From contig PMSX01000047.1 in NCBI GenBank assembly GCA_003167495.1, positions 1-64,000 on the forward strand: a stretch of DNA of 64,000 nt, given 5' to 3'. The notes beneath the pieces were generated by a model. It had not been told where the DNA came from. It did no database searches and saw only the letters and a list, made by a program, of their open reading frames with translations. This document shows positions 10,376 through 28,259 of this stretch, piece by piece. The position numbers and the translations under genes are program-made. Position 1 is the stretch's first letter; the number at the start of each line of letters is the position of its first letter. The stretch is from Bryobacterales bacterium (lineage in GTDB: Bacteria; Acidobacteriota; Terriglobia; Bryobacterales; Bryobacteraceae).

Positions 10376-10478
10376 CGCTCAGCCGGGAAAAGCATTCTCA
10401 CATTCCCAGACGAGTTGTCGCCCGCCTATCGGGTATATAGAAGCGAGACTCCGTGATTCGTACCGATAAACGCTAGGG

Positions 10479-10740: not shown

Positions 10741-10823
10741 TTTTGTTGCGGAGACGCACTTCAAGTGCGCGTGCCGGAGCAAGCGATGGTTCCGTCAATG
10801 GTGCCCGTTACGAACTGTCACAC

Positions 10824-10873: not shown

Positions 10874-11238
10874 CTCTATGACGAGCATGGAGCCGCCACA
10901 GCAGGGGCAGCGCCAGGAACAATCACGCGGTGGTAAATCGGCGGTGACGGAGGCAACCGCTGGTATTGGCGCAGCGTTGAGCAGCTTGAAACACAGCGGC
11001 AGAAGTGCACGCCGCCGACTAGGCAAGACCAGTCAGCAGAACGCCACGGCTGGCCTTGCCCGTGTGTGAGAGCGAAGGGTTGAGCAAGCCGTTTTTCAAG
11101 CCCGAAGTAAACATGAGGAGATCTGGCTCGCCGAAATGTCGGATTACGGCTCAGTCTTGGTGACTTTCTCTGTTCTCTGCTTAGTTGTCAATCGGCGAGA
11201 GCCCTCCCTCATTTCGAAGAATTGCTTTCGACAACGTT

Positions 11239-11903: not shown

Positions 11904-11974
11904 TGTGCTGCTTCGCCTTAGTGGTCACGGTTGTGCCAGGGGACCCGGTTGAGAACTCTGACAGACGTTAAAGC

Positions 11975-12883
11975 TCACTGTCGTTCTAGGGATTTACGGT
12001 CCCAATTTGCGAGATCGGCAGCGGCGCCATACGAGCTCTGCAGAAAATTCAAGAGAGCATCGTCCGGCGAAGAGAGCACTCGTACATCATCGTATTTGAG
12101 TATGAACTCCCCCAATGTGCGGTTGTATTGAGCGGCGGCGGGTTCAATCGGCTTTTCGGCTAGACCTATCGGCTCTGGAGCCGCGTAGCAGTAAAAAGCC
12201 GCATCGCCGAATCCGCCATTACCCGGCCAAAAGCCTGCGCTGATCACCTCGTGTGAATAGGCTTCGCGAGTGATTGAGTCTGCGTCCTTTCTAGGAGGTG
12301 CTGGCCGTCCTGAAAATCGTGTGACCGCAAGATCGAAACTTCCCCAAAAGAAGTGAACAGGACTTACTTTGCCAATGAAGCGAGAAGAGAACTGCTGAAA
12401 AATCTGGTCGATGTGCACCAGTGCCCTCCAGAATCTATGCGCATATTCGGGCTCATAAGAAGCATGTTCGCGATCTTCGGCAAAAGGGATAGGAGATTTC
12501 ACTTCCACTGGTGTGGGATGGATGTGAACCGACACCCCTAATACCGCTAGGACGCGTTGATATTCAGCATAGAAATCCGCTACCGTCTGCGCTCGCAGCG
12601 GAAGGGACAGACTTGCCCCTGAGCTAAGCCGGAAAAGCAGATTGTGACTCACGAAATCGAATTCGATCTCTAGCATTTCCGCTCCCCACGGCATGGCTGA
12701 AGTGTTCAGCCCGTGGGCACTCACATATAAGGGTACATTCCACCAATGCGCCTGCAGCGGACTGAGCGCTAACCTTGTTTTGCCTACTATCTGGGTCCAC
12801 AGGTGTAAAGTGTCCGCCGTACTTTGCCAGTTCGACCACTTGAGTTCGGGCCACCTTTTCGGATCTATTTGCAAATCTGACAT
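11975..12883 (-). CDS. DUF5996 family protein
   Basis: 302 residues with the family's opening pattern: WPELKW, then ADTLHLWTQIVGK (residues about 12-37), followed by ALSPLQAHWWNVPLYV, then FDFVSHNL, and later HFFWGSFDLAVTRFSGR. No signal peptide, so cytoplasmic. Function is unknown in the family. ATG at 12883 has GGAG about 12 bases upstream (weak) and AAGGTG closer. Length fits the family. No operon partner: the neighbours are the PEP-CTERM remnant and a long non-coding gap. Confidence 0.8.
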   Translation of the reverse strand: MSDLQIDPKRWPELKWSNWQSTADTLHLWTQIVGKTRLALSPLQAHWWNVPLYVSAHGLNTSAMPWGAEMLEIEFDFVSHNLLFRLSSGASLSLPLRAQTVADFYAEYQRVLAVLGVSVHIHPTPVEVKSPIPFAEDREHASYEPEYAHRFWRALVHIDQIFQQFSSRFIGKVSPVHFFWGSFDLAVTRFSGRPAPPRKDADSITREAYSHEVISAGFWPGNGGFGDAAFYCYAAPEPIGLAEKPIEPAAAQYNRTLGEFILKYDDVRVLSSPDDALLNFLQSSYGAAADLANWDRKSLERQ

Positions 12884-13467
12884 GAATCACCTTCGCTCCT
12901 TTAACTAGATTACGGTCGCCGCTGCAAAACCAAATCTGTGACTTCTTCGGAGTCAGATATTGTAAGAAGGTTTCGAACAATACGACTTGCCAGCTTCAGA
13001 CTACAACTCCACCACGCACCATTTGTGGACGGACTCGGCAACAATCCGGCGCCGGACTTGTCGAGTTGACGCCTATTTGCACTTTGGTCACGCAGCGTCG
13101 AGTTCGTCGAGTTCATTGAACCACTCCGACCTATCATGGCACCGATTCGCGCGCAGGAGTTTTAACGAAGAACACGGACGTTGATTCAGTCGCCGTTCCG
13201 TCCCGGCGACGCTGCGAACGATGAGGGGAGCCTAGCCGACTTCTCATTAGGAAATTAGTTTCCAGAATAGTCGGACGATGCGGGAGCGGGACGGGCAGCT
13301 CTACCTACCCTTGAGGCCGCAAACAAGGATTGGCCGGTTTAAAGGCGTTTAGACCGACAAGGAGGGAAGCTCGGCGCTCGTTCCAGTCGCTACGGCACTG
13401 GCGGCGCGCGTTGAAGTCGGAAAGCTGGAAGACAATGGAGAACTCTCTCTCAATTTCGTTCAGCCGC
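12884..13467. other. 584-base gap, nothing recognised
   Basis: Only short frames without protein-like composition. I see no tRNA, no terminator with a U-tract and no long repeat. Confidence 0.5.
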
Positions 13468-14037
13468 TTAGCCGCTGCCGATTTCCGCTAATAGCCAGGC
13501 ACGCGCCAGTCTCCAATCGCGCAACACTGTGTCCGGGGATACCTTTAATACCTCGGCCGTTTCTTCCACGCTTAACCCACCAAAGAATCGCAGCTCGATG
13601 ACTCTTGCTTTCCGCGCGTCCAGGTCAGCCAGAGCGGTCAACGCGTCGTCAAGTCCGATCAGCTCGCGAGCCCGGCCGGATCCGAGTTCCGGAAGCTCGT
13701 CCAGATTCACCTTTTCCACTGGCCCGCCGCGCTTGGCCGCGACCCGCCGCCGAGCCCGATCCAGCAGGATACGGCGCATGATCTGCGCCGAGATCGCGAA
13801 GAAATGCGCGCGGTGCTGCCAGTCCACGTTCGTAACATCGATCAGTTCTAGAAAGGCTTCATGAACCAAGCCTGTGGTTTGAATGGTCCGCCCAGGACGC
13901 TCATTCTGCATGCAATGTCCAGCAATGCGCCGAAGCTCGTTATAGACCCGCGGCGTTAGACGTTCTAGTGCGGCTGCGTCGCCGCCCGCCCAAGCGCGCA
14001 GAAGCCGTGTAGTTTCAGAGGTTTCGCAATCTCCCAT
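13468..14037 (-). CDS. ECF-type sigma factor (Sigma70_ECF-like HTH family)
   Basis: 189 residues. Region 2 lies at about 10-90 (LVHEAFLELIDV, then HRAHFFAISAQIMRRILLD), and region 4 at about 125-185 (LDARKARVIELRFFGGLSVEETAEVL, ending with a helix-turn-helix WRLARAWL). This subgroup is known in Acidobacteriota and Planctomycetes for sitting next to Ser/Thr kinase genes and needs no classical anti-sigma factor. ATG at 14037 chosen because the frame upstream lacks conserved residues. It is divergent from the metalloprotease and kinase genes (about 100 bases apart), which suggests it acts with, or is controlled by, that kinase. Confidence 0.88.
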   Translation of the reverse strand: MGDCETSETTRLLRAWAGGDAAALERLTPRVYNELRRIAGHCMQNERPGRTIQTTGLVHEAFLELIDVTNVDWQHRAHFFAISAQIMRRILLDRARRRVAAKRGGPVEKVNLDELPELGSGRARELIGLDDALTALADLDARKARVIELRFFGGLSVEETAEVLKVSPDTVLRDWRLARAWLLAEIGSG

Positions 14038-14138
14038 AAATCCGGCTGGGAGGGAATTATATCCCACCGGAAATTTCTTTGCGCGACGTTCCAGTTTTCC
14101 CTTCCCGATTGCGCCTGAGGAGCGACGGGAGAGAACAA

Positions 14139-14729
14139 ATGAAGTTGACGGCGATGATGCTGATCATAGGCGCGGTGGGATACGCCCAATCAGATGCTAT
14201 AGACCGTAAGGTTACCGTTTGTACAGAAGGCGACGCAGCAGCTTTGGGGGCGGCGCTGCGTGCCCAGACGCTCGTTTCCAAGATGTTCGCCGAAATCGGC
14301 GTAACCATCGAGTGGCGATACGGCCTCCGCAATTGCCCCGCGGAAAGTATCCGCGTCAGCCTGAGCCGGAGCACCGCGACAACTCTGAAACCTGGCGCCC
14401 TCGCCTACGCCCTGCCATATGAGGGTACCCATATCGAGGTCTTCTATGACCGCATCTCGAAGAACTGGGAGCTCGCCATGGTTCCGGCCGTTTTGGGTCA
14501 CGTGCTGGTTCACGAGATCACGCATATTCTCGAAGGCTTCAGTCGGCATTCTGCTTACGGTGTCATGAAGGCGCATTGGGACGAACGGGATTACTTTCTT
14601 ATGAAGCGCAAGCCGCTTGCATTCGCTCCTGAGGATCTCGATCTGATTTACCGCGGCCTGACTGCGAGGGCGCGCGGTGCCATGGTGGCCAGGAATGTTC
14701 CCAACACGACGCTTGCAGGCCAGCAGTAG
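14139..14729 (+). CDS. Exported HExxH metalloprotease-like protein
   Basis: 196 residues with a signal peptide (residues 1-17, AQS) and a zinc-protease style helix LVHEITHILEG with His125, Glu126 and His129; His137 in SRHS is a possible further ligand. The family is small and, from memory, common beside kinase/ECF loci in acidobacteria; its substrate is unknown. ATG at 14139 follows GGGAGA with good spacing; the frame is open to 14079. It is 11 bases upstream of the kinase gene and so almost certainly co-transcribed. Possible role: a periplasmic protease acting on the kinase sensor or on its ligand (inference). Confidence 0.75.
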   Translation: MKLTAMMLIIGAVGYAQSDAIDRKVTVCTEGDAAALGAALRAQTLVSKMFAEIGVTIEWRYGLRNCPAESIRVSLSRSTATTLKPGALAYALPYEGTHIEVFYDRISKNWELAMVPAVLGHVLVHEITHILEGFSRHSAYGVMKAHWDERDYFLMKRKPLAFAPEDLDLIYRGLTARARGAMVARNVPNTTLAGQQ

Positions 14730-14740
14730 GAGGAATATTA

Positions 14741-17569
14741 TTGGTCGTTATGACCCGCGAGCGCTGGCGGCAAATTGAGAAACTCTACCACTCCGCTCGA
14801 GAGGACGGCCGCGAGGTTCTTGCGGGTGTTGCTCCCGATCTACGCCTCGAGGTGGAGCGTCTGCTTGCGCAGGATTCCGAAGGCGCGATTCTGGACGGGC
14901 CTGCGGCGGAGCTTTTCGGGACCTCCACAGTCACACAATTCACCCCGGGTCTCCTGTTGGGGCCGTATCGCATCGAAGGACCGTTGGGCGCCGGAGGCAT
15001 GGGCGAGGTGTTCCGCGCCACCGATACCCGGCTCGGCCGCGCCGTCGCTATCAAGCGGGGTCACGAGCAGTTCAGCGAACGTTTTCATCGCGAGGCGCGC
15101 GCGATATCGTCACTGAACCATCCGCACATCTGCACGCTTTACGATATCGGGCCCGATTACCTCGTTATGGAGTTGATCGAAGGCGAAACACTCGCAGCGC
15201 GTTTGACGCGCGGCAAACTTTCTGTGGAGCAGACCATTCACTACGGATCGCAAATTGCCGATGCACTTGCCGCAGCGCACGCCAAGGGCATCGTCCATCG
15301 CGACCTGAAGCCTGCCAATATCATGCTCACCAAATCCAGTGTAAAGGTCCTTGATTTTGGGGTCGCAAAATCGTTGCAGGACGAAACCCTCACGGCGAAT
15401 CACGTAATCACGGGCACACCGGCCTACATGGCGCCCGAGCAGCGCGAGGGCAAGGAATGCAGTCCCCGCACTGATATCTACGCGCTCGGTCTGGTCCTAC
15501 GCGAAATGGCGACGGGCCGTCGCGACGCAACAACCGCGAGCCTGCCTGCACACCTCGGACATGTCATCGAGCGCTGCCTGGAAAACGATCCGGAACAGCG
15601 CTGGCAAGCGGCTTCGGACGTTGGCAAAGAACTGGCGTGGGTGGTGGAATTGGCGGCAAACACCGCGCCTGCGTTTCAAAAAGATCGGAACCTCGGTTCG
15701 CGGCAACGGCAGCCGGATGTGCTCATCGCAAGCAGCATTAAACGATACCACGTAGTGCTCGGTGCCGCCGCGGTTATCGCGATCGTGGTCGCGATAGGCT
15801 GGTTCGCGGATTCCCAGCGGTCCAAGGTCCCGGCTGAGCTCACACAGAAATGCCTGACCTTCAACTCAGGCGAGGCTCATGTTAACAGCGCCGCGATTTC
15901 TCCCGATGGGAAATATATTGCTTACTCCGATGTTGCAGGGATTCATCTCAGGCTGCTTTCGACAAACGAAGAGAGGCTCATCCCACGGCCGCCCGGTGTT
16001 CCGGAATCCATATTCTGGGACGTCGCTTCCTGGTTTCCCGACGGGACGGAACTGCTGGCTAATCTGACTCAGCCCGGCGATGAAAGGAGCATGTGGACTG
16101 TGTCGCTGCTGGGGCAAGCTCCGCATAGATTGCGCGAGCGCTCCTTCGGGTTTGAGGTTTCACCAGACGGCAGCCACATCGCCTTCGCGCCGCGAGGAGG
16201 AACGGCTTCCGCGCCGGTGTTTTTCGCCGGTTCTGCCCGCGAAATCTGGGTGACAGATAGGCAGGGAAACTATGCTCAAAAGCTCGTCGGCGTTGCAGAC
16301 AACGAGTGGCTCTATTCCGTACACTGGTCGCCAGACGGACAACGTCTGGCGTACATTCACGTCCGGAACACCCCACGAGGATTGCTGGCCTCGCTTGAGA
16401 CCTGCAACTTGAAGGGGGCGACCCGGTCAGTTGTGCTGGGTGACCCGGGTCTTCAAATTTGGGACTCATGCTGGCTTCGAGACCGGCGGATTGTCTATTC
16501 GCGGCGGGAGTCGCCTGGTTCAGACGACAGCAACCTTTGGCAAATCGGTTTGGATGATAGTTCCGGAGCGCCCACGAGCGGCTCGAAACGCATCACGCAA
16601 TGGTCCGGAGCACAGCTCGAGGGACTAAGCCGGACTGCGGATGGCACGCGCCTTGTACTCAGGAAGGAGATTTTTCGACAGCAGGTCTATGTCGGGCAAC
16701 TCTCCTCGGCGAGAACGCTGATGGGTGCGCCTCGACGCTTAACAAACGATGACAGTATCGACGAGGCCTACTCGTGGACGGCGGATTCAAAAACGGTGCT
16801 GCTCATGTCGCGCCGCAACGGTAAATACGAGATCTTCAAACAGGCCATCGCTGAGAACACAGCCGAAGCTCTCGTGATACAAGCACAAAGCGCGCTTCTG
16901 CCACGGGTCAGCCCAGATGGCAAATGGGTACTCTACTTTTCGACGCCACCGGGACATGAGTGGGCGCCCACCCTGACTCAAATCATGCGTGTGCCCATCA
17001 ACGGCGGATCACCGCAGTTTCTTCTCGAATCACGAAACTTCTGGGATCTTCAGTGTAGCCGCAATCCAGCAACACCTTGTGTGGTTCTTGAGAGAAGCCA
17101 AGATCGGAAGCAGTTTCTCGTATCGCTCGTTGACCCACTGAAAGGCAGAGGTAAAGTTCTCCGGTCCATTGACACTGACCCGGCAGCCCTCGCCTATACA
17201 GATGGACTTTCTCCCGATGCATCGACTTTCGCAATCGCCAAAAAAGTCGAGCCCAACATTCACATCCATTTAATTTCGCTTTCAGGGGCACCCAACCGTG
17301 AGATCGAGCTGAACGGCTGGGGAAACATCACCGGTCTTGACTGGTCGGCCGACGGGAAAGGGTTCTACTGTGGCTCTCTATCTCCGGGAGGCGGAACTCT
17401 CTTATATGTGGACAGGACGGGGAAGTCGCAGGTGCTATGGCAGGACAAGGGAGCCGCCACCTCTGCCTTCGACGCCATGGATGGCATACCATCACCCGAC
17501 GGCCGCTATCTGGCGATGCCAGGCGGTAGCGTAGTGACGAGCAATGTCTGGATGCTCGAACATTTTTGA
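14741..17569 (+). CDS. Receptor-like Ser/Thr protein kinase with WD40/TolB-type propeller
   Basis: 942 residues. Cytoplasmic kinase domain at about 74-320: glycine loop LGAGGMGEV (82-90), VAIK Lys105, HRDLKPAN with catalytic Asp188, DFG, and GTPAYMAPEQ. One membrane segment at about 332-352 (AAAVIAIVVAIGWFA). The C-terminal 580 residues are periplasmic, with PD40/TolB-like blades (repeats of the type ISPDGKYIAYSD). Start: TTG at 14741, because AGGAGG lies 7 bases upstream; the ATG at 14750 is too far from it. The N-terminal 70 residues match the usual short domain that precedes such acidobacterial kinases. Co-transcribed with the metalloprotease-like gene and divergent from an ECF sigma gene. 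Confidence 0.92.
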   Translation: MVVMTRERWRQIEKLYHSAREDGREVLAGVAPDLRLEVERLLAQDSEGAILDGPAAELFGTSTVTQFTPGLLLGPYRIEGPLGAGGMGEVFRATDTRLGRAVAIKRGHEQFSERFHREARAISSLNHPHICTLYDIGPDYLVMELIEGETLAARLTRGKLSVEQTIHYGSQIADALAAAHAKGIVHRDLKPANIMLTKSSVKVLDFGVAKSLQDETLTANHVITGTPAYMAPEQREGKECSPRTDIYALGLVLREMATGRRDATTASLPAHLGHVIERCLENDPEQRWQAASDVGKELAWVVELAANTAPAFQKDRNLGSRQRQPDVLIASSIKRYHVVLGAAAVIAIVVAIGWFADSQRSKVPAELTQKCLTFNSGEAHVNSAAISPDGKYIAYSDVAGIHLRLLSTNEERLIPRPPGVPESIFWDVASWFPDGTELLANLTQPGDERSMWTVSLLGQAPHRLRERSFGFEVSPDGSHIAFAPRGGTASAPVFFAGSAREIWVTDRQGNYAQKLVGVADNEWLYSVHWSPDGQRLAYIHVRNTPRGLLASLETCNLKGATRSVVLGDPGLQIWDSCWLRDRRIVYSRRESPGSDDSNLWQIGLDDSSGAPTSGSKRITQWSGAQLEGLSRTADGTRLVLRKEIFRQQVYVGQLSSARTLMGAPRRLTNDDSIDEAYSWTADSKTVLLMSRRNGKYEIFKQAIAENTAEALVIQAQSALLPRVSPDGKWVLYFSTPPGHEWAPTLTQIMRVPINGGSPQFLLESRNFWDLQCSRNPATPCVVLERSQDRKQFLVSLVDPLKGRGKVLRSIDTDPAALAYTDGLSPDASTFAIAKKVEPNIHIHLISLSGAPNREIELNGWGNITGLDWSADGKGFYCGSLSPGGGTLLYVDRTGKSQVLWQDKGAATSAFDAMDGIPSPDGRYLAMPGGSVVTSNVWMLEHF

Positions 17570-17962
17570 CGCTTATCGTTCCGTAAACGGCGACTCGAGC
17601 AGCACACAACGAAGCGACCCAATGCGGTAATTGTGCCTGGAGTACGCCGCCGAAAGCAGTGCGGCTTCAGTTATCAACACGGCCGCAAAACGGTAGACAT
17701 CTATCGGGAAGTGCTCCGACGCGGTGCCCCGTGGTGGCCCTTAAACCGTTGATAACTCTGGCGGTTGTACCGGTCTGGCCGGATTAGTCCTGAGAAAACG
17801 GCGATGGGTCCTTTGATCCCGGGAAATTAGTTCCAGATTGGAGCCGCTAATGCGACTTTTCCGCGTTAGCCCGATTGGGGGACTGCCATGCCCCGGCAAT
17901 GGTGTGCGAGTTTACGACAAGAAAAACGAGTTCTGTCCTATCAATCCGAAAGCGGCGCGGAA
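17570..17962. other. 393-base gap between convergent genes, nothing recognised
   Basis: No gene-like frame. I see no strong hairpin with a U-tract between the kinase gene and the convergent TonB-domain gene. Confidence 0.5.
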
Positions 17963-19000
17963 CTATTGGTTCTGAGCCGCTGCCCGAAAGTTCACAGTTA
18001 CCGGAGCCGTGACACTGACCGCGTTTCCATTGAGAATCGTCGGACGATACTTCCACTGCAGAATCGCTTTTTTGGCGGCATTTACCAGCAAAGGATGCCC
18101 GCGCAGGAGCTGAAGAGATTTTATGGAGCCATCCTCACCTATAACGACGTTGAACTCCACTGAGCCCTGAATTCGAGCGGCTTGTGCCAGAGCGGGATAC
18201 TCGGGATCTACTCGTTCAATTAGATTTGCCTCTGCCACGGCCGCCCCGATTCGGACTGCACCGTGCGGGTCGTTGTCATTCTGCACGGCGTATCCAGCGG
18301 GAATTTCAAACATCTTCGGGTCCGGTTCTTCACGTTTCAGCTGAGTGAGAGAAACAAGCTGCGTGCCGTGGCGAGGATCGGTATGTTTCACACTGAGGTT
18401 CATGTGCAGTTCGTCTGAATACCAATATTCGTCCGTGATAGTTATTGCTCTGTCATTGCCGTCCTCGCCTTCGGGGATTGTTCGGGATCGACGGAAACCA
18501 TGAACACTCAGGCCCTCGATAGAAGAAAATCCTAGGTCGTCGCGCTGTACGTCTGGCCGAACGGCTGGTGTTTCTGAGGCCTGCGGTCGCGATGCAGCCA
18601 GCGAGACAACCGTTGCCTGCTGTGTCGCGGGGGTTAGCGTCGTCCTTGTGCGCGTGCTTGGGTCGAAAATCGTGATGTCACGAATGCGTCCCTCGCCTTG
18701 GTCCGAGGGCCGAAGATAGAAGCGATTTTCGTTGTGCGTGCGACCTTTGGAGTCGCGAGCGATTGTTGTCATCGTTTTGGTAGTGACAGTTGTGCCATCT
18801 GGCAGCGTCTGAATGTTGTCCATCATGGTTGTTGCACTAAACGGAGTGTTGGGGATCGCCGGAATGCTGACAATGGAAATCCACTCCGATATACCCACTG
18901 AGGGAACGTTTGGGCGTTCAGTTGCATCCTGAGCGGACACTATCGGCGCAATCAACAAGAGAGGCGCCCAAAGAGCATGAAAGTAGTTTTGGCAAAACAT
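17963..19000 (-). CDS. Exported protein with C-terminal TonB domain
   Basis: 345 residues. Signal peptide at 1-23 (ends VSA). The C-terminal 90 residues form a TonB_C domain: RVDPEYPALAQAARIQGSV, GEDGSIKSLQLLRGHP, then AAKKAILQWKYRPTILNG. The middle part (about 30-240) is of unknown fold. There is no N-terminal membrane anchor and no Pro-rich linker as in true TonB, so it is more likely a periplasmic or outer-membrane protein that uses the fold for other contacts. ATG at 19000 with GAGG eight bases upstream; a GTG at 19006 is too close to it. Confidence 0.8.
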   Translation of the reverse strand: MFCQNYFHALWAPLLLIAPIVSAQDATERPNVPSVGISEWISIVSIPAIPNTPFSATTMMDNIQTLPDGTTVTTKTMTTIARDSKGRTHNENRFYLRPSDQGEGRIRDITIFDPSTRTRTTLTPATQQATVVSLAASRPQASETPAVRPDVQRDDLGFSSIEGLSVHGFRRSRTIPEGEDGNDRAITITDEYWYSDELHMNLSVKHTDPRHGTQLVSLTQLKREEPDPKMFEIPAGYAVQNDNDPHGAVRIGAAVAEANLIERVDPEYPALAQAARIQGSVEFNVVIGEDGSIKSLQLLRGHPLLVNAAKKAILQWKYRPTILNGNAVSVTAPVTVNFRAAAQNQ

Positions 19001-19453
19001 CGGCACAACCTCTGATGAGTACAGTGATTCTTTAGGTGCTTGCGTTGCACTCGATTTGCGCTTTTTTTCTGCGGCGAGGTTGACCTTTGGGATAGCTCCC
19101 GATAAACGCTCCTCGTCCCGGCCATTTCAAGTTGACGGAAAATCGGGTGCGCGGAACTGCCAATTGTCCGCAACTCCCTAGCCGAGTCATTTTGGCCGCA
19201 AGCGTTATCTCACGCCCAAATCCCCCGCCCAATTTTCCCCGTTCACAGACCTTAAGAATAATTTTCAGATTTCTTTACCCCAATCCTCCCAACAACCTAC
19301 CGCCAATTTCCCAACCAAACTCCTCACCATAGTTCGGAACAGCCTCTTCATTTGCTACATTTCACTCAGGTCCAGCAGAGTGTTCACCCTGCCTGGGCCC
19401 TTTCCGTTTCTGGCCACAGAAACCGCCGCAACTTTCCACTCAAAGGAGTCCCT
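19001..19453. other. 453-base gap with pyrimidine-rich tract
   Basis: No gene recognised. The stretch 19235-19380 is strongly C/T-biased on the plus strand, which fits an untranslated leader of the gene at 19454. The divergent gene at 19000 also needs its promoter here. Confidence 0.4.
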
Positions 19454-20143
19454 ATGAACAGCAACATCTCCGACGCACAACTCGCCGCCAATCGCGCCAA
19501 CGCCGCACACTCAACGGGTCCGCGCTCATCTACTGGTAAGAGAGTCGTTTCCCTCAACGCCGTCAAAACCGGACTCACCGGCAACACTGTCATGCTGCCC
19601 AAAGAGGACGCCGCCCTCTACACCATCCATATCGAAGACTACGCGGCGGAACTCCAACCTGTCGGCATTCAAGAGCGCGACCTCGTTCAGTCCATCGCCG
19701 ATCTTCGCTGGCGCTTGAATCGCATCCCCGGTCTCGAAGCGTCCCTCAACTCCCACGCCCTTGCTACCTGCGCCAACATGTATCCCGAGCTTCCCGAAGC
19801 TGAAAGCTCGTTTCTCATTGAAATCGCCGTCTTCAACATGAATGAAAAGAAGCTCCACAACATCCACCTCCACGAATCCCGCCTCGCCCGCCGGCGTGAG
19901 AAAGAACTGGCCGAGCTCCGCGCCCTCCAACAGACCCGCAAAGCCAAGGAAGCCGAAGCCAGGGAAAAGGAAGAAGAGGCGAAGAAGGCTAGAGCCGCCA
20001 AGTCCCCGCAGCCCGCGGAAGTAAAAACCGCAGCGGCTTCCTCACAAAATGGCTTTGAATTTACAAATCAAGCAGCAACCCCGGCCAACCCATCCACACC
20101 AAAGGCGGATACGCCCGAAACCGTTAAGAAAACCGCCGCCTGA
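19454..20143 (+). CDS. Conserved acidobacterial protein of unknown function
   Basis: 229 residues. N-terminal motif NRANAAHSTGPRSSTGK followed by the NAVKTGLTG segment; from memory this is a multi-copy family in acidobacteria. The centre (about 60-150) is helical, and the C-terminal third is a highly charged Ala/Lys/Glu coiled region and an Ala/Pro/Thr tail. ATG at 19454 has AAAGGAG with five bases spacing. Codons end mainly in C, more so than in neighbours, hinting at either high expression or a different origin. The function is not known; no membrane segment is seen. Confidence 0.7.
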   Translation: MNSNISDAQLAANRANAAHSTGPRSSTGKRVVSLNAVKTGLTGNTVMLPKEDAALYTIHIEDYAAELQPVGIQERDLVQSIADLRWRLNRIPGLEASLNSHALATCANMYPELPEAESSFLIEIAVFNMNEKKLHNIHLHESRLARRREKELAELRALQQTRKAKEAEAREKEEEAKKARAAKSPQPAEVKTAAASSQNGFEFTNQAATPANPSTPKADTPETVKKTAA

Positions 20144-20158
20144 CGAGTCACCCACTCT

Positions 20159-20200
20159 TGACAGTGTCATGACAGCCGTGACAGTGTCGCTGAGCGACAC
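20159..20200 (+). promoter_or_regulatory. Candidate enhancer (UAS) for a sigma-54 activator
   Basis: Dense TGACA/TGTCA half-sites: TGACAGTGTCA (20159-20169), the perfect palindrome TGTCATGACA (20165-20174), a second TGACAGTGTC (20179-20188) and GTGTCGC-TGA-GCGACAC (20184-20200). The block ends 62 bases upstream of a -24/-12 element, a usual place for an enhancer-binding-protein site. The likely binder is the activator encoded at 26640-28259. Confidence 0.6.
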
Positions 20201-20261
20201 CAGCGGCTCAACCATCGGTACCAAGCGTCCTGTTCTCATCGCTTTAGAAGCAGCCCGTATT

Positions 20262-20276
20262 TGGCAGCATCCTTGC
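20262..20276 (+). promoter_or_regulatory. Sigma-54 promoter (-24/-12) of the STAS-RND operon
   Basis: TGGCAGCATCCTTGC matches TGGCA-N6-TTGC, with GG and GC ten bases apart as required. Transcription would start near 20288, just before the ATG at 20301. Confidence 0.75.
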
Positions 20277-20300
20277 CTAAATCAAAACCGAAGGCACGCG

Positions 20301-20597
20301 ATGTTGAGAACAATGATTTCCGATGGACCCTTTGAGCAGAAGTGGACTCTTCAGGGGCGGCTCTGTGGCCAATGGGCCACCGACCTAAAGCAAAAGTGGG
20401 AAGAGACGCGGAACACACGCAAAGGACGGCCGTGCGTCGTTGACCTGGAAGACGTGATCTTGGTGGATGAGGCCGGCGAAAACACACTCTGGCAAATGTC
20501 GATCGAGGGTGCGCAACTCGTGTCAAGGCGTGCCTATATGAAGAACGTACTTACCGGCTTAAATGCCGGTAAAGGCCAAGCCGACCCGAATCGCTGA
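20301..20597 (+). CDS. STAS-like small protein heading the RND efflux operon
   Basis: 98 residues. Strand-helix pattern of a STAS (anti-anti-sigma-like) domain: FEQKWTLQGRLCGQW, then PCVVDLEDVILVDEAGENTLWQ. In classical members the loop reads D-S-S/T-G with a phosphorylatable Ser; here it is VDEAG, so regulation by a SpoIIAB-like kinase is unlikely. ATG at 20301 with GAAGG upstream, 25 bases after the sigma-54 -12 element. It ends 12 bases before the RND pump gene. The role is unknown; a cytoplasmic docking or sensor partner of the pump or of the activator is inference. A second protein of the same type is encoded at 28286-28579. Confidence 0.7.
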   Translation: MLRTMISDGPFEQKWTLQGRLCGQWATDLKQKWEETRNTRKGRPCVVDLEDVILVDEAGENTLWQMSIEGAQLVSRRAYMKNVLTGLNAGKGQADPNR

Positions 20598-20609
20598 GGA
20601 AACAGACCA

Positions 20610-23600
20610 ATGTGGATAATCAAAGTCGCTCTTGGAAGACCCTACACTTTTATCGTCTTAGCGTTGCTCATTCTGATCCTCGCGCCGGTAGTAATTTTGC
20701 GGACACCGACAGACATTTTCCCTAACATCAATATTCCCGTCATTTCGGTTGCCTGGACCTACACAGGTTTGAACCCCGAGGAACTGGAAGGCAGGCTAAC
20801 GACGCCTTACGAGAAATCGCTAACCACGTTGGTCGATAACATCGAACATCTTGAATCAACAACCTACAACGGCGTGGTAGTAGTCAAGCTCTTCCTCCAG
20901 CCCAACGCGAGTCTTGAGATAGCTAATGCCCAAGTAACGGCTGCCTCGCAATTTCTACTGCGACAACTACCGCCTGGCCTGCAGCCTCCGCAAATCATCA
21001 ACTTCAGCGCATCAAGCGTTCCCATTCTGCAATTAGGCTTGTCTGGAAAGGGCCTGTCTGAAGATCAGCTCAACGATCTGAGCCTCAACTTTCTGAGGCC
21101 GCAGATGGTGACAGTTGCGGGAGCGGTGGTGCCTTATCCATATGGGGGGAAGCAACGTCAGGTGATGATCAACATGAACGCCGGACTGCTGCAGTCGAAG
21201 GGCTTGTCCCCACAGGACGTCTTGACGGCAGTCAATCGCCAGAGCCTGGTGTTGCCATCCGGTACTGCCAAGATTGGGCAGAGCGAATATGACATTCGAT
21301 TGAATGACAGCCCTCGTGAGATCAGCGGGTTGAATACACTTCCCCTCAAGCACGTCAACGGCACCACGGTGTATCTCAGAGATGTGGCATCAGTAGCTGA
21401 TGGATTCGCGCCCCAAACCAATATCGTTCGTCAAGACGGACACCGGGGTGTGTTGGTCACGATTGTCAAATCGGGGACGGCGTCCACGCTGGATGTCGTC
21501 TCGGGAATTCGTAAGTTACTTCCTCGAGTGGCCCTTACTTTGCCCCCGGCTCTAAAGATCGAGCCCCTTGATGACCAGTCGGTGTTTGTTCGGGGCGCAG
21601 TCAGTGGAGTGATTCGCGAAGCTATTATTGCGGCGGCTCTCACCGGACTCATGATCCTTCTTTTCCTGGGGAGCTGGCGGAGCACGCTGATTATCGCTAT
21701 TTCGATTCCGCTTTCCATTCTGACGTCCGTTATCGTTCTAGGATTTCTAGGTGAAACGATCAACATCATGACGCTAGGAGGTTTGGCTCTAGCCGTAGGT
21801 GTTCTCGTGGATGATGCGACAGTGACCATCGAGAACATCGAACGATTTCTGGAAGAGGGGCACGAACTTCGGAGCGCCATCATTGAAGGGGCAGGCCAGA
21901 TTGCCGTGCCCGCGTTGGTCTCCACGCTCTGCATCTGTATCGTGTTCCTGCCCATGTTTCTCCTCGGCGGTGTAGCAAAGTATTTATTTGTTCCTCTTGC
22001 AGAGGCGGTGGTTTTTGCGATGCTCGCCTCATACATCCTTTCGCGGACACTTGTCCCCACCTTGGCTATGTTCTTACTCAAAGCCAACCAGCATGGCCAC
22101 GGGTCGAGAAATCCATTGGTGCTCTTTCAGCGTGGTTTTGAAAGGCTCTTTGAGCGCATTCGCCTGGGTTACCACTTAGTACTGCAACGGCTGGTAGCGG
22201 CGCGCGTGGCATTCATCCCCCTCTTCCTGCTAGGCTGCCTCAGCTTCTTCGCCTTGATCCCTTCGTTGGGACAGGACTTTTTTCCGAACACCGATAGCGG
22301 TCAGTTCATTCTTCATGTGCGCGCCAAGACCGGAACGCGTATTGAAGAAGCCGCGAAGTTATGCGATTTGGTGGAAAATTCGATACGCCGAACTATCCCG
22401 CCGGCGGAGATGGACACCGTGATTGACAACATTGGCATGCCATACAGCCAGCTGAACACGCAGCATATGGTTTCAGGAGCGATTGGCGCCGCAGACGCCG
22501 ATGTAATCGTGTCACTCAAAGAGGAACACCACGCAACAGCCGGATATGTCCGCCAGCTGCGAATCAAGCTGCCGAAAGAATTTCCCGGCACAACCTTCTC
22601 ATTTCTTCCTGCCGACATAGTCACGCAGATACTCAATTTCGGCTTGCCCGCACCCATCGACATTCAAATGGAAGGGGCAAACTACGAGAAAAATCGCGCT
22701 GTTGCCGACCGAATGCTGCAACAGCTCCGGCCCATTCCCGGTCTAACCGATCTGCGAATTCAACAACCGGCAGATTATCCGGTTTTCAACGTGCAGGTAG
22801 ACCGAACGAAGGCAGACCAAGGCGGATATACCGAGCAGGATGTAGCCACCAGTCTATTGAATACGCTGAGCGGGAGTTTCCAGATACAGCCGATGTTTTT
22901 CTTGAATTGGAACAATGGCGTGAACTATAGCCTGGTAGCGCAAACCCCGCAGTATCAGATGCAGTCCCTGCAGGATCTGAAAGGCATTCCCATCACTGCC
23001 ACGGGCATGACCAGGCCGGAAATTCTGGCCGACGTTGCGTCTGTCTCGCGCTCTAGCGAACTTGCGGTCATTTCCCACTACAACATCCGGCGGGTGGTGG
23101 ATATTTACGGGTCAGTACAAGATCGTGATCTAGGTTCGGTTGGGAAGGATATTGAGCGGATTGTTAGCGCAGATGAGAAGCTTCTGCCGCGCGGCAGTTT
23201 CGTTCACGTTCGAGGCCAACTGCAGACGATGCGAACTTCATATATAGGCTTGCTGGCCGGGCTGGCGTTTGCCGTGATCCTGGTCTACCTGTTGATTGTC
23301 GTCAACTTCCAAAGCTGGCTCGACCCATTCATTATCATCACAGCGCTACCAGCCGCACTGGCAGGAATTGTGTTGTGTTTGTTTATCACTCGAACCACCC
23401 TAAGCGTGCCGGCATTGATGGGAGCAATTATGTGCATGGGAGTAGCGACGGCGAATAGCATCCTTGTTGTCTCATTCGCAAAGGACAGGCTTGCTCATCA
23501 CGGCGACGCGATTCAAGCGGCGGTCGAAGCTGGGAGTGCCCGCTTTCGTCCCGTACTAATGACCGCTCTCGCCATGATTATCGGGATGATTCCGATGGCG

Positions 23601-23786
23601 CTTGGAGCAGGTGATGGTGGAGAACAAAACGCTCCCTTGGGGCGAGCGGTTATCGGTGGGCTCATGCTGGCAACCATCGCCACACTCGCATTTGTGCCCG
23701 CAGTGTTCGCGCTGCTGCATGCAAAGCGCCCTGGATCAGACATTAAAGACACGCTTGAATTCGACCGCGAACCGGTACATGCATGA
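20610..23786 (+). CDS. RND efflux pump, inner-membrane HAE1/AcrB-type transporter
   Basis: 1058 residues, the usual size. One N-terminal membrane helix (about 12-32), large periplasmic loops, a first group of helices around 335-480 and a second group from about 870. The conserved GGLALAVGVLVDDATVTIENIE segment carries the paired Asp of the proton relay. Expected to export amphiphilic or aromatic compounds by proton antiport in a tripartite complex with the two following gene products. GAGGAAA lies 7 bases before the ATG. Substrate range cannot be read from the sequence. Second gene of a sigma-54-driven operon. Confidence 0.93.
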   Translation: MWIIKVALGRPYTFIVLALLILILAPVVILRTPTDIFPNINIPVISVAWTYTGLNPEELEGRLTTPYEKSLTTLVDNIEHLESTTYNGVVVVKLFLQPNASLEIANAQVTAASQFLLRQLPPGLQPPQIINFSASSVPILQLGLSGKGLSEDQLNDLSLNFLRPQMVTVAGAVVPYPYGGKQRQVMINMNAGLLQSKGLSPQDVLTAVNRQSLVLPSGTAKIGQSEYDIRLNDSPREISGLNTLPLKHVNGTTVYLRDVASVADGFAPQTNIVRQDGHRGVLVTIVKSGTASTLDVVSGIRKLLPRVALTLPPALKIEPLDDQSVFVRGAVSGVIREAIIAAALTGLMILLFLGSWRSTLIIAISIPLSILTSVIVLGFLGETINIMTLGGLALAVGVLVDDATVTIENIERFLEEGHELRSAIIEGAGQIAVPALVSTLCICIVFLPMFLLGGVAKYLFVPLAEAVVFAMLASYILSRTLVPTLAMFLLKANQHGHGSRNPLVLFQRGFERLFERIRLGYHLVLQRLVAARVAFIPLFLLGCLSFFALIPSLGQDFFPNTDSGQFILHVRAKTGTRIEEAAKLCDLVENSIRRTIPPAEMDTVIDNIGMPYSQLNTQHMVSGAIGAADADVIVSLKEEHHATAGYVRQLRIKLPKEFPGTTFSFLPADIVTQILNFGLPAPIDIQMEGANYEKNRAVADRMLQQLRPIPGLTDLRIQQPADYPVFNVQVDRTKADQGGYTEQDVATSLLNTLSGSFQIQPMFFLNWNNGVNYSLVAQTPQYQMQSLQDLKGIPITATGMTRPEILADVASVSRSSELAVISHYNIRRVVDIYGSVQDRDLGSVGKDIERIVSADEKLLPRGSFVHVRGQLQTMRTSYIGLLAGLAFAVILVYLLIVVNFQSWLDPFIIITALPAALAGIVLCLFITRTTLSVPALMGAIMCMGVATANSILVVSFAKDRLAHHGDAIQAAVEAGSARFRPVLMTALAMIIGMIPMALGAGDGGEQNAPLGRAVIGGLMLATIATLAFVPAVFALLHAKRPGSDIKDTLEFDREPVHA

Positions 23787-23797
23787 GGAGACTTTAA

Positions 23798-24997
23798 ATG
23801 ACTACTGAACTTGAACCTGATATCACAGAAACGCTGCCACAGCCGGACGTTGCGGAACCTCGGGAGTTTGTGCAGGCGGCTGGCCTTGTAGCCCTATTCG
23901 CAGTTTTAACTATTTTGGCGGTAATAGGTTTGGGCTTGCGCGCACGGCACGCGGCCGCCCAGGCGCTTGTCAAAACGGCTCAATCCGCCGTCGTGGCACG
24001 CGTCTCGGTTGTGCATCCGCAGCCTAACGGTAGCAACGAAGAACTGGTGCTGCCAGGTAACATACAGGCATTCGTGGAGGCGCCCATCTATGCGCGTACA
24101 CATGGATATTTGAAAAGCTGGTACTTCGATATTGGCGCCTATGTTCACCAAGGCCAGTTGTTGGCCGAAATAGAAACGCCCGAAGAAGACCAGCAACTTG
24201 ACCAGGCGCGCGCTGACCTAAAGAGTGCTCAGGCAAACATGAACCTGGCTGAAACCACGGCGGTCCGCTGGCAGAATCTACTAAAGAAGAATGCCGTCTC
24301 GAAACAAGAGACCGATCAAGCGGTAAGCGATTTTGCAGCCAAACAGGCAACCGTGGATGCGAGTTCAGCGAACGTCCGCCGTTTGGAGCAACTACAGTCG
24401 TATGAAAAGGTGTATGCGCCGTTTGACGGAGTGATTACAGCGCGCGAGACCGATATTGGCGCGCTAATTGACGGAGACTCGTCTCCAAGAGAGCTGTTTC
24501 ATTTAGCTGCAATAAACAAACTGCGTGTATTTGTTCCGGTGCCGGAGGTTTCCGCTGCGTCTATCGCGAACGGCCAACGCGTTATTCTAACTTCCGACGA
24601 GTTCCCAAATGACGTCTTTCACGGGACGATCGCCCGCGACTCAAACGCTGTCGATCCAGCTTCGCGGACGTTGAATGTGGAGGTCGATGTTGTGAACCAA
24701 AATCACAAGTTACTCCCCGGCTCGTATGCCTTCGTTCACATCAAGGAACCCGGAAATGCGAAAGGTTTAACGATCCCGGCTAACACGCTGTTGTTCCGAA
24801 AAGAGGGTCTGCAGGCGGCGGTGGTCCGGAATGGGCATGCGGAGTTGGTTCCAATCACAATCGCGCACGACTACGGTGGCACGGTCGAAGTCAGCTCGGG
24901 CCTGAAGCGGAGTGACTCGGTGATTCTCGATCCTTCGGATTCGCTGATCGGCAACACCCCAGTTGAGGTGGAACCGGGAGATGGAGCGCAGCAATGA
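23798..24997 (+). CDS. RND periplasmic adaptor (membrane fusion protein, HlyD/AcrA type)
   Basis: 399 residues. One N-terminal membrane helix (about 27-49, no lipobox), barrel-sandwich/lipoyl halves (around 75-115 and 200-235) split by an alpha hairpin (Gln/Ala-rich, about 125-195), then beta-barrel and membrane-proximal domains. It links the inner-membrane pump to the outer-membrane channel. GAGGAGA precedes the ATG. Its stop overlaps the ATG of the next frame (ATGA at 24994-24997), which suggests translational coupling. Confidence 0.92.
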   Translation: MTTELEPDITETLPQPDVAEPREFVQAAGLVALFAVLTILAVIGLGLRARHAAAQALVKTAQSAVVARVSVVHPQPNGSNEELVLPGNIQAFVEAPIYARTHGYLKSWYFDIGAYVHQGQLLAEIETPEEDQQLDQARADLKSAQANMNLAETTAVRWQNLLKKNAVSKQETDQAVSDFAAKQATVDASSANVRRLEQLQSYEKVYAPFDGVITARETDIGALIDGDSSPRELFHLAAINKLRVFVPVPEVSAASIANGQRVILTSDEFPNDVFHGTIARDSNAVDPASRTLNVEVDVVNQNHKLLPGSYAFVHIKEPGNAKGLTIPANTLLFRKEGLQAAVVRNGHAELVPITIAHDYGGTVEVSSGLKRSDSVILDPSDSLIGNTPVEVEPGDGAQQ

Positions 24998-26634
24998 AAC
25001 GAGAGCAGCCGAAAAAAAAGGGGGACACTCCGAACCCCGCTAAGCGAGAGGGTGGCTGGCCGTTTGTGGGGCTGGATGGCATCCAGCGCGCCGATTGCCA
25101 AATCGGCGCTCGCCGCACCTCCCTTATCCCCCCGAGTCTCCGAATCCGAGCCGCGCGCGTGAGCAAGCGGTCGCTCCTCTTCACTCTTTCCCTATTGTTT
25201 CTTTCCGGATGTATGGTTGGACCTAACTACACTCGTCCTGCCGTACCAACCACCCCACAATTCAAAGAGTCTGGGCCCACTACTTTCAAAGAAATGGATG
25301 GGTGGAAAACAGCCCAACCTAACGATCAGACAATCCGCGGTAACTGGTGGGAATTGTTCAACGATCCTCAACTAAATGCACTTGAGGAACAAATCGATCC
25401 CGCCAATCAAACGCTAAAAGCGGCTGCGGCGAATTTCAATGCGGCGCGTGCGGCCATTCGCGTCAGCCGTTCGAATCAAGCTCCTACGGTGAGCACCAAC
25501 CCATCCGTAGGCGCGGAACGTGTCTCCGCGAATGAACCCTATTTCAATCAGGCGTTGGCAAATAATGGGGTTGGAAACTTTTCCCTGCCGTTCGATTTGA
25601 ATTATGAAGTGGATCTGTGGGGCCGAATCCGCCGCAGTGTCGCATCCGCAGGCGAGCAGGCGCAGGCCAGCGCTGCGGACAAAGAAACGATTCGCCTGAG
25701 CCTGCACGCGGAGCTCGCGGTCGACTATTTCGAATTACGCAGCGCCGACGCACAAGAGAAACTACTACGAGACACGGTAACCGCGTATCGAGATGCGCTT
25801 AGACTTACTCAGGACAGATATGACGGGGGTGCCTCGCCTCTGTCCGATGTTGCGCAAGCTCGTACTCAGTTAGAAGCCGCGCTGGTGCAGCAGACCGACG
25901 TCACCGTCCAACGCGCCCAATACGAGCATGCCATTGCGGTCCTAATCGGCAAACCACCGGCTGCGGTCAACATTCCGCCGACGCCACTCACCATTCAAGC
26001 GCCTGAATTGCCAGGGATTCCAGGGTTGGTGCCATCGCAACTGCTGGAGCGCCGGCCCGACATTGCAGCCGAGGAACGCCGCATGGCTTCGGCCAATGAG
26101 CAAATTGGAATTGCGGAAGCGGCGTACTATCCGACGTTGAGCCTATCAGCGGTAGCAGGCTTTGCGGGAACTTCCGCGTTGAACTGGTTTACCTGGCCGA
26201 GCCGTCTCTGGGCTGTGGGTCCGATGATGTCAGAGACCCTCTTCGATCATGGCCTAAGACGCGGCAACGAAGAGATAGCGCGTTCCAACTACGATGCCAC
26301 AGTGGCCAATTACCGCCAGTCGGTACTAACGGCCTTTCAGCAAGTGGAAGACAATTTGGCTGCACTGCGGCAATTGGAGATCGAAGCGGGGCAGCAACAT
26401 CTGGCAACTGACTCAGCGGAACAGTCACTCAGCCTGTTTACAACGCGCTACGAAGGCGGAGTCGACACTTATCTGCAAGTCATCACCTGGCAGACATCGG
26501 CGCTTCAAAATCAGCGGAATGACATCGATATTCTGCGTCGAAGGTTGGAAGCGAGCGTGCTTTTGGTAAAGGCAGTCGGTGGGGGGTGGGACTCGTCGCG
26601 CCTGCCTCAAGTCGCGTCTCTGAAACGAAACTGA
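24994..26634 (+). CDS. Outer-membrane efflux channel lipoprotein (NodT/OprM type)
   Basis: Open frame of 546 residues. The real mature part starts at a lipoprotein signal, [22 protein letters not shown], with the lipobox Cys; this follows a GTG at 25159. Between the coupled ATG at 24994 and that GTG lie 55 codons that are unlike any family member and contain two adjacent palindromes. So either translation starts at 24994 and the signal is internal, or (more likely) the true start is GTG 25159 and the segment is an inserted repeat. The rest has two OEP repeats, with the typical [16 protein letters not shown] beginning and the [19 protein letters not shown] segment. It forms the exit duct of the tripartite pump. 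Confidence 0.9.
25072..25109. repeat. Two adjacent perfect palindromes at the adaptor/channel junction
   Basis: CTGGATG-G-CATCCAG (25072-25086) and GCGCCGATT-GCCA-AATCGGCGC (25088-25109) are both perfect inverted repeats and nearly touch. They lie in the 165-base segment 24994-25158 that does not look like efflux-protein sequence. Typical of a REP-like or small mobile repeat. Confidence 0.6.
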
Positions 26635-26639
26635 TCCCT

Positions 26640-28259
26640 ATGATGACGATGTTAGGCGAACGAATTCCTCTTCCGCAGATCGGATCTTCGGAACGATATC
26701 AGTTGCTGCTGGACCTTGCGAAAGCCGCAAACTCCTATCTTGATTTTCATCAAGTCATGCGCGCTCTTGGCGAATCTCTCAGCCGCTATATGCCTAAGCT
26801 CCGATTTGTCTCGGTGTTGATTATCGACGGTGACTTCTATTCGCCTTATGCCCTACATGTGTCCGGGTTGGAGCCTATAAGTGGAGAATCTTTCGGCGGA
26901 ATGCTGGCCCGGCAAACCGGAATCGATTCAGACAAGATTCCGGCACGAGTGCCCATGAGGGACTCCGTACTAGAGCATATAAGCCGAACCCGCGAACCCT
27001 ATGTGTGCCCCAATCTTATTCGAGGACTGCGATTCAAGGAGGATCCGCGACTGCTCACATACGGCTACCGTGCTTATGTGCTCTGTCCACTCATAGTTCG
27101 CGACCGCGTTCTCGGGGCCATTCAGTTCGTCGACGATAATCCGAGAGACTACTCGGAAGAAGAAGTATCGCTCTTTTGTGAAATTGCGGAAGTAGCTGCT
27201 GTTGCGCTGACGAACGCGCTAGCTTACCGGGAGATTGAAGTGCTACAGCAGAAGCTGCAATCTGAAAACCTGGTTTTGAAAGTCAACATAGCAGAGAGCA
27301 CGGGATTTGAAGAGTTGATCGGATCGTCCAGCGGATTGAAACAGGTGTTGACAGCGATCGAAAAGGTAGCGGCCACTGATTCGACAGTACTTATTCTGGG
27401 AGAAACGGGTACAGGAAAGGAACTGATTGCCAAGGCGATTCATAAACATTCATCGCGCTCGGACAAGCCGATGGTGAAGGTAAATTGCGCTGCGATACCG
27501 GAATCGTTGATTGCCAGCGAACTCTTCGGCCATGAGAAGGGAGCATTCACGGGAGCCTTACAGCGGCGAATCGGGCGCTTTGAGATGGCAAATGAGTCAT
27601 CGCTGTTTCTAGACGAAGTGGGTGAACTCCCGCTCGAGATGCAGGTCACTCTACTACGCGTACTTCAGGAACGTGAGTTTGAGAGAGTGGGCAGCAGCCA
27701 TGTGATTAGAACGGACGCGCGCCTCATCGCCGCCACGAACGGAGATCTAGTAAAGGCCATAGCCGAGAACAGATTCCGCAGCGATCTCTATTATCGTTTA
27801 AACGTATTTCCTATTCACGTACCGGCCCTACGGGAACGCAGCGAGGACGTTCCCATACTCGTGGAGTATTTCGCTGCTCGGTGCGCGGAACGGATTGGAA
27901 AGAAAATTCGACACATTGAGAAAACCACCATGGATCTTCTCGTAAGTTACAAATGGCCCGGTAATATTCGAGAGCTCCAAAATGTCATCGAGCGCGGCGT
28001 CATTCTCGCGGACTCGGGAATTCTGCGGATCGATCCCACGGTGTTGGGCGCCGGCGCCGAATCTGCTGCGGCGGACACGGATAAAGATGCTTTGCACCAG
28101 CAACAACGAGACCTAATCGAATCAACGTTGGCTGAGACAAGAGGGCGAGTGGCGGGCCCTCATGGCGCTGCTGCTCGACTGCGGCTGCCCGCATCGACCC
28201 TCGAATCGAAGATCCGAGCATTAAAGATCGACAAACATAAGTATCGATTCCGTGACTGA
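26640..28259 (+). CDS. Sigma-54-dependent activator (GAF-AAA+-Fis), regulator of the locus
   Basis: 539 residues. GAF sensor domain (about 20-190), short coiled coil, AAA+ domain with Walker A GETGTGKE (about 254), GAFTGA loop (about 301) and Walker B LFLDEVGE, and a Fis-type DNA-binding helix-turn-helix at the C terminus. All sigma-54 contact residues are intact. The start at ATG 26640 is the first of three close ATGs; it follows the channel stop by 5 bases, so it is the last gene of the pump operon. A GTG at 26586 is also in frame. Because its own operon has a sigma-54 promoter and an upstream TGACA-rich enhancer, it is probably autoregulated. The GAF domain would sense the inducing compound directly (inference). 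Confidence 0.9.

Follow-up and report, generated by a model that had tools for sequence, protein, structure and literature searches.

A Candidate Sigma-54-Dependent Efflux Operon With a STAS-Like First Gene in a Bryobacterales Genome and Its Probable Upstream Activator

Gene Content and Organization of the Locus

The DNA examined here is a 64,000-nucleotide stretch from a Bryobacterales bacterium (positions 1 to 64,000 of contig PMSX01000047.1, assembly GCA_003167495.1; hereafter, the window), in which a putative resistance-nodulation-division (RND) efflux operon lies behind a predicted sigma-54 (-24/-12) promoter element and a candidate enhancer (Table 1). The plus-strand order is a STAS-like gene, the RND permease, the periplasmic adaptor, the outer-membrane channel, and a predicted sigma-54 activator (enhancer-binding protein, EBP), termed EBP1, with very short gaps between the genes. 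Translation of EBP1 more likely begins at an ATG at 26640, 5 bases past the stop codon of the channel gene, than at the GTG at 26586. A second predicted activator, EBP2, lies upstream, and both proteins have the Sigma54_activat AAA+ domain and the GAFTGA motif. The rpoN gene was found in this genome, which comprises 9.39 Mb and has 43 matches to the sigma-54 activator domain, some of them fragments.

The ACR_tran permease, RND_mfp adaptor, and NodT/OEP channel together constitute a tripartite RND efflux system. The gene set given in the initial annotation (STAS-like, RND, adaptor, channel, and a GAF-AAA+ activator with GAFTGA) was recovered; two of its labels were not. The permease, called HAE1 there, falls below the TIGR00915 (HAE1) cut-off (376 vs 940 bits), as well as those of TIGR00914 (HME, Cus/Czc; 407 vs 701 bits) and NCBIfam RND_permease. 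The Fis label of EBP1 found no library support, as Pfam HTH_8 was not reported at E 0.001 for EBP1 or EBP2; by eye, the ends of the two proteins are alike and that of EBP1 is Fis-like. Sigma-70 and terminator scans returned one promoter-like site (4.9 expected) and six terminators (10.8 expected), and the RNA fold 3' of EBP1 was not notable (z -0.41).

Table 1. Features of the putative efflux operon and its surroundings, in window coordinates.
Feature	Position	Strand	Basis or remark
EBP2, GAF-PAS-AAA+ activator, proposed activator of the operon	6927..9674	+	Domain matches, GAFTGA, orthology
Left near-repeat copy, ACCCACTTTTGACAGT, covering the end of EBP2	9663..9678	+	Sequence
Segment separating EBP2 from the operon	9679..20149		Absent between the two in L100, L102, and L222
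Right near-repeat copy, ACCCACTCTTGACAGT, running into the enhancer	20150..20165	+	Sequence
Conserved putative enhancer (upstream activating sequence): TGACAGTGTCA, half-site TGACA, TGACAGTGTC	20159..20188	+	Near letter-for-letter in L100, L102, and L222
Extra dyad, GTGTCGCTGAGCGACAC, perfect 8+8 (GTGTCGCT-G-AGCGACAC)	20184..20200		Window copy only; overlaps the end of the block
Putative -24/-12 (sigma-54) element, TGGCAGCATCCTTGC	20262..20276	+	GG/GC core at the right spacing; kept in orthologous loci
STAS-like protein, 98 aa	20301..20597	+	Profile comparison
RND permease, 1058 aa	20610..23786	+	ACR_tran match
Periplasmic adaptor	23798..24997	+	RND_mfp match
Outer-membrane channel, NodT-type (NodT/OEP)	24994..26634	+	Library matches
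EBP1, GAF-AAA+ activator	26586..28259	+	GAF and Sigma54_activat domains, GAFTGA intact

Promoter Element and Enhancer Block

Between the -24/-12 match TGGCAGCATCCTTGC and the STAS ATG at 20301 lie 24 bases, and both the position and the spacing of the match are as the initial annotation had them. Because TGGC-N7-TTGC occurs nine times in the window (3.5 expected; nine were reached by 2 of 100 shuffles), this match alone is weak evidence. Exactly one TGG-N9-TGC is present between the enhancer block and the first gene in each of four orthologous loci, the window included, and the element recurs across the wider group of STAS-like genes described below.

Repeat, dyad, and pattern searches likewise bore out the TGACA/TGTCA-rich block that had been noticed upstream. 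Within it, TGACAGTGTC occurs at 20159 and at 20179; the block reads TGACAGTGTCATGACAGCCGTGACAGTGTC, and its end is separated from TGGCAGCATCCTTGC by 73 bases. The composite block pattern, with up to three mismatches allowed, has one match in the window and none in shuffled sequence; its 16-base core has a single exact match in the 9.39-Mb genome (seven more places at two mismatches), in which the reversed control has no match. Among 237 genomes of the sampled family, which we take to be the Bryobacteraceae, the pattern TGACAsTGTCATGACA-N1-8-TGACA was found in four, at one site each: that of the window, G500 (locus L100), G485 (L102), and G574 (L222), where G and L denote our numbering of genomes and loci. 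These copies differ by one base in the spacer that separates the dyads, and the extra dyad at the end of the block is absent from L100, L102, and L220. The TGACA/TGTCA block is not due to chance, and the presence of an upstream enhancer and a sigma-54 promoter before the pump operon is supported.

Orthologous Loci and the Probable Activator

L102 and L100 are orthologous to the operon, with identities of 63-67% for STAS, 83% for RND, 68-71% for the adaptor, and 64-70% for the channel (in L100 over 164 residues only, this locus stopping within the channel gene). In G574, the order is activator, block, TGG-N9-TGC, RND (80%), adaptor (63%), and channel (74%); the STAS gene is apparently a short remnant ending in SDAPSEQT, and the switch and pump are kept. 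The gene order and promoter, which the initial annotation had suggested looking for in other acidobacteria, are thus present in three orthologous loci, in one of them with the STAS gene reduced to a remnant, and all three retain both the -24/-12 element and the TGACA sites. Their loss from homologous loci, which that annotation had named as a refutation, was thus not seen.

The activator gene directly upstream in L100, L102, and L222 encodes the EBP2 orthologue (66-73% identity over 618-705 aa), and in all three its stop codon is overlapped by the enhancer. No EBP1 relative was found in the sequence available past the channel gene, which amounts to 1.9 kb in L102 and 4.4 kb in L222. The recognition helices (read by eye, as were the elements and dyads of L228 and L305 discussed below) also distinguish the two activators: RTTLIAHL in EBP2 vs STLESKI in EBP1. 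The EBP2 orthologues have RTTLIAHM (RTTLIAHMKRL) in L100 and L102 and TLIAYM (TLIAYMKRLDI) in L222. Among 30 activator loci inspected in the window's own genome, which are part of all matches there (L198 without its end, L184 and L192 with the same tail), RTTLIAHL occurs in EBP2 alone.

Helices and sites were further compared, the window excluded, across the 79 STAS loci that have 300 bases of upstream sequence and an activator no more than 4 kb away. Of the four loci with helix class TLI, three have a GACA-N0-3-TGTC dyad, vs 1 of the 75 others, with the limit that L100 and L102 are orthologues and so not independent; GCC[AG]-N6-[CT]GGC is present at 23 of the 49 loci of class TLQ vs 5 of the 30 remaining. 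This association agrees in direction with a binding of the TGACA/TGTCA block by EBP2. The initial annotation had the adjacent activator driving its own operon. The overlap of the enhancer with the end of the EBP2 orthologues, the different helix of EBP1, and the lack of an EBP1 relative past the channel genes in L102 and L222 all argue that it named the wrong protein, and that EBP2, rather than EBP1, is probably the likeliest activator.

In the window, EBP2 and the operon are separated by 10.5 kb of DNA encoding a glyoxalase, a DUF5996 protein, an extracytoplasmic function (ECF) sigma factor, a Ser/Thr kinase-PD40 protein, a TonB_C protein, and unknown proteins; no integrase family was reported among the segment proteins scanned. 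The segment is bordered on both sides by copies of a 16-base near-repeat that differ by one change (ACCCACTyTTGACAGT). The simplest reading would be that the segment came between EBP2 and the operon, with the enhancer left beside the operon. A misassembly across the 16-base near-repeat seems unlikely.

The idea that this pump is under sigma-54 control everywhere was rejected: among 60 named RND loci (67-83% identity, at least 3 kb of upstream sequence, L225 and L226 among them), a STAS gene is found in the first 1.5 kb upstream of three, and an activator within 6 kb of four. In one set of 40 loci, only L072, the paralogue in the window's own genome (G000:C58:70000-89900), gave a match to an activator or, weakly (E 5e-5), to STAS. 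This additional copy of the pump (RND 73% identical) has as neighbors three activator genes and a gene that is weakly STAS-like, the last behind TGGCGTTGGGCTTGC and two TTGGCCAA boxes. In L228, an activator with helix TTLIAQM is followed by a STAS gene, an ECF-sigma-like gene (by eye), and an RND gene with TGGCACGGCCGCTGCA just upstream. Close pump relatives (67-70% identity) also occur outside the Acidobacteria, in L261, L287, and L301, from records named Acidisphaera rubrifaciens, Rhodopila globiformis, and Chthoniobacter flavus.

A Wider Group of STAS-Like Genes

A STAS-like profile (13 rows), searched at E 1e-10, matched 59 of 150 sampled family genomes and 38 of 396 phylum genomes. In all, 112 STAS regions were retrieved, in sets of 12 and 100, the weakest family and phylum matches being left out; 116 matches at E 1e-10 or better were analyzed, of which 114 entered the positional counts (the other two have fewer than 300 upstream bases). 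TGG-N9-TGC occurs 25-60 bases before the start in 69 of these 114 loci, vs 1-7 in each of six other 36-base bins, and in 40 of 62 when one locus is counted per genus group; on these counts, genes of the group stand behind a sigma-54 element more often than not. The pattern TGG[CA]-N7-YTGC is found within 300 bases upstream of 37 of the 116 STAS genes, vs 3.3 in shuffled sequence, where 8 was the highest count, and 6 on the opposite strand. Upstream of other genes, its frequencies are 5/84 (RND), 6/168 (adaptor), 5/86 (channel), and 5/95 (AAA+).

Activators are also close to these genes. Within 5 kb, an activator was found at 52 of the 72 STAS loci with that much sequence on both sides, vs about 4.5% expected from 43 matches per 9.39 Mb and 0 of 530 control points in RND loci without a STAS gene; proximity by chance was rejected on this basis. 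The 5-kb limit is a tight one (the window itself fails it for the activator), and at 8 kb, 41 of 53 loci have an activator. At 34 of the 72 loci, an RND, adaptor, or channel match follows within 5 kb downstream on the STAS strand, and 26 of these loci also have the activator. The gene after STAS was scanned in 92 of the 116 cases (15 fusion-like cases set aside, 9 without a next gene by the rule used), and among the best 25 of 55 families it matched an HlyD-type adaptor in 17, a sigma-54 activator in 13, OEP in 7, sigma-70 region 4 in 5, ACR_tran in 3, and HATPase_c in 2; HTH_8 was matched by 12 of the 92.

At ten loci (L031, L034, L082, L083, L090, L092, L095, L117, L145, and L146), STAS and a TolC-type channel share one open frame of 534-595 codons, which could encode either a single protein or a channel with an internal start. 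In three one-frame examples (L008, L011, and L012), a signal-peptide-like stretch was seen by eye between the two parts. A tree of the STAS sequences gave no answer as to whether STAS follows the pump or the activator, since all three labels change less often than when shuffled: next-gene type 12 times vs 28.7 (56 rows), helix class 13 vs 23.5 (74 rows), and activator placement 12 vs 31.2 (77 rows). Additionally, a second STAS-like group (L006, L020, L022, and L024, with ..FKYYIHDG.. or similar) has TGGAAC-N5-TTGC 93-176 bases before the start of the match.

Nature of the STAS-Like Protein

The STAS-like protein of the window, taken alone, matches Pfam STAS_2 at E 0.036 with 14.7 bits, vs a gathering score of 29.2 bits. 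Of the 103 group members, 72 reach E 0.01 or better against STAS_2, and the 103-sequence profile matches STAS structures (TM1442, 1.2e-7; SpoIIAA, 3.9e-5; MlaB, 0.026). From these profile comparisons, the STAS-like label is right. SpoIIAA and MlaB are profile relatives of the group, from which it nevertheless differs. At the residue before the conserved Gly, which we take to be the phospho-serine position of SpoIIAA, the window protein has Ala, and just 9 of the 103 members have Ser/Thr, and therefore most members would not be SpoIIAA-type phospho-switches; also unlike SpoIIAA, HATPase_c is rarely the next gene (2 of 92). Unlike MlaB, no Mla transporter family appears as the next gene among the best 25 of the 55 families.

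Because G574 keeps the switch and pump with a mere remnant of STAS, the STAS gene looks accessory to the switch. In L305, an RND gene (53% identity over the first 88 residues) has TGGCACTACGAGTGC 31 bases before its ATG, plus a GACACGAGTGTC dyad, and there is no room for a STAS gene between TGGCACTACGAGTGC and the ATG. Together with the remnant in G574, the elements directly before RND in L228 (TGGCACGGCCGCTGCA) and L305 suggest that the pump can be switched with no STAS gene leading the operon. L305 also has, at 2350-2625, a small open reading frame that is STAS-like by eye and lies tail to tail with the EBP1 relative. The STAS protein could act either on the pump, as MlaB does, or on the activator. 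We tentatively raise the possibility, with more doubt than confidence, that the small STAS proteins, most of them lacking the phospho-serine, are dedicated partners of sigma-54 efflux modules. As the first product of the sigma-54 promoter, they would dock on the cytoplasmic side of the pump as MlaB does on its transporter, a reading that the ten loci with STAS and channel in one frame would fit, or bind the sensor of the activator to damp or gate it. If so, the element, which 40 of the 62 sampled genus groups have at its expected position, would mark a new regulatory module of the whole phylum.

Proposed Mechanism and Alternatives

From the observed gene order, motifs, motif conservation, EBP2 orthology, and rpoN, we consider it rather probable that this is a sigma-54-dependent efflux operon switched by EBP2 via 20159-20188 and TGGCAGCATCCTTGC. 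The signal, binding, and transcription that we infer would proceed as follows. EBP2, with GAF and PAS as its sensor domains, would respond to a cytoplasmic signal and bind the paired TGACAsTGTCA sites of the enhancer, and ATP hydrolysis by its AAA+ domain would open the sigma-54 polymerase waiting at TGGCAGCATCCTTGC. Transcription of the STAS, RND, adaptor, and channel genes would follow, probably along with that of EBP1 as the last gene. The STAS-like protein would be a cytoplasmic accessory, non-essential to the switch and distinct from phosphorylatable anti-anti-sigma factors of the SpoIIAA type, and EBP1 a later neighbor more likely to act on other promoters, perhaps those of the adjoining oxidoreductase genes.

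Several observations weigh against this proposal. EBP2 is 10 kb away in the window, where EBP1 adjoins the channel gene in the same direction and the window-only extra dyad could be an EBP1 site. Other activators of helix class TLI in the same genome (RTTLIHKM in L184/L192, RSTLISKM in L186, and RSTLISMM in L195) might read related sites. Only four orthologous loci have the enhancer, and two of these come from short contigs (22.0 and 17.8 kb); the genome of the window is a draft of 396 contigs with a contamination value of 7.59. In the wider STAS group, 29 of 114 genes are without GG-N10-GC at 30-60 bases and 45 of 114 without TGG-N9-TGC at 25-60 bases; within 5 kb, 20 of 72 loci are without an activator and 38 of 72 without a downstream RND, adaptor, or channel match.

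The role of EBP1 bears on the alternatives. Its close relatives are few (10 of 237 family genomes at E 1e-140, that of the window counted). In L305, a relative (65% identity) lies about 1.9 kb from orthologues of an aldo-keto reductase (67%) and an NAD-dehydrogenase (56%), and in the window the same two genes follow EBP1, in an apparent minus-strand operon with a GSDH-cytochrome gene (32284-28598). The other nearest relative, in L306, is on a 3.6-kb contig without these neighbors. Because the neighborhood is common to L305, EBP1 may belong to the oxidoreductase genes and serve them, a lead that comes from one relative. The -24/-12-like sequence TGGCATTCTGTTTGC (32335-32321, minus strand) is located 51 bases before the likely ATG at 32284 (MFTYYSDL) of the GSDH-cytochrome gene. 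Divergent from it, a -24/-12-like TGGCAGACGACTTGC occurs at 32567-32581 on the plus strand, before a TIM-barrel gene at 32685. As a candidate EBP1 site, TTGGCCAA, present twice at L072, was sought in the window and had no match there.

These genes admit a two-tier circuit, in which EBP2 opens the efflux operon and EBP1, as its last gene, activates the second sigma-54 operon, perhaps with feedback through the extra dyad. The distance from TGGCATTCTGTTTGC to its ATG lies within the spacing seen at STAS genes, and the neighborhood common to L305 also favors such a circuit. It nevertheless assumes that EBP1 is cotranscribed, draws on a single informative relative locus (L305), and has no site found in common between the two promoters; we regard it as unlikely. 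Less probable still, and on balance quite improbable, is a positive feedback loop in which EBP1 itself binds 20159-20200 and drives its own operon. Its start just behind the channel gene, its intact GAFTGA motif, and the confinement of the extra dyad to the window copy would fit this loop, but the enhancer is kept in L102 and L222 with no EBP1 relative in the sequence past the channel, the recognition helix differs, and in L305 the relative of EBP1 keeps company with the oxidoreductase genes. Finally, the surplus of TGGC-N7-TTGC in the window would accommodate a chance match at TGGCAGCATCCTTGC, with the operon read from another promoter, but the placement kept in four orthologous loci and the strong positional excess of the element upstream of STAS-like genes make this very improbable.

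Relation to Known Systems and Implications

EBP1 shares the GAF-AAA+ layout and GAFTGA motif with activators of the FhlA/NorR/NifA types; it differs in scoring below the cut-offs of the best 25 of 39 NCBIfam models and in having efflux genes adjoining it. CbrB is a two-component response regulator. In Pseudomonas putida, CbrB and sigma-54 are reported to drive PP2810-PP2813, modelled as an RND-type pump; the pairing of a sigma-54 activator with an RND-type operon is as here, but CbrB answers carbon limitation, and the relevant passages mention no STAS gene (PMC6296734). In Myxococcus xanthus, the targets of Nla28 include MXAN7147 and MXAN989, RND and Cus-type efflux operons with -24/-12 sites. 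Nla28 is likewise a sigma-54 activator of efflux operons, but it is a starvation-response regulator with many targets, and again no STAS gene is mentioned in the portion of the report concerned (PMC9765219). The view that sigma-54 control of an RND pump with a STAS-like first gene is not a known system holds in part: control of RND-type pumps by sigma-54 is on record in the passages cited (PMC6296734, PMC9765219), and nothing was found for the STAS-like first gene. A search of the literature on STAS domains, sigma-54 and EBPs, RND efflux, and Acidobacteria, with the name RpoN outside its terms, found no STAS/sigma-54/efflux system and no description of the STAS-linked module.

The comparison indicates which regulator most likely goes with this enhancer in a genome that has 43 matches to the sigma-54 activator domain, and it cautions against assuming that the closest activator is the right one. 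Furthermore, it exposes a recurrent group in the phylum of the window, in which a STAS-like gene stands behind a -24/-12 element with an activator close by and often with efflux genes behind it, and in which the recognition helix allows activators to be matched with sites. Soils are rich in Acidobacteria, of which few have been brought into culture, so the triggers of their pumps are difficult to reach by other means, and the pairing of activators with sites offers direct binding tests.

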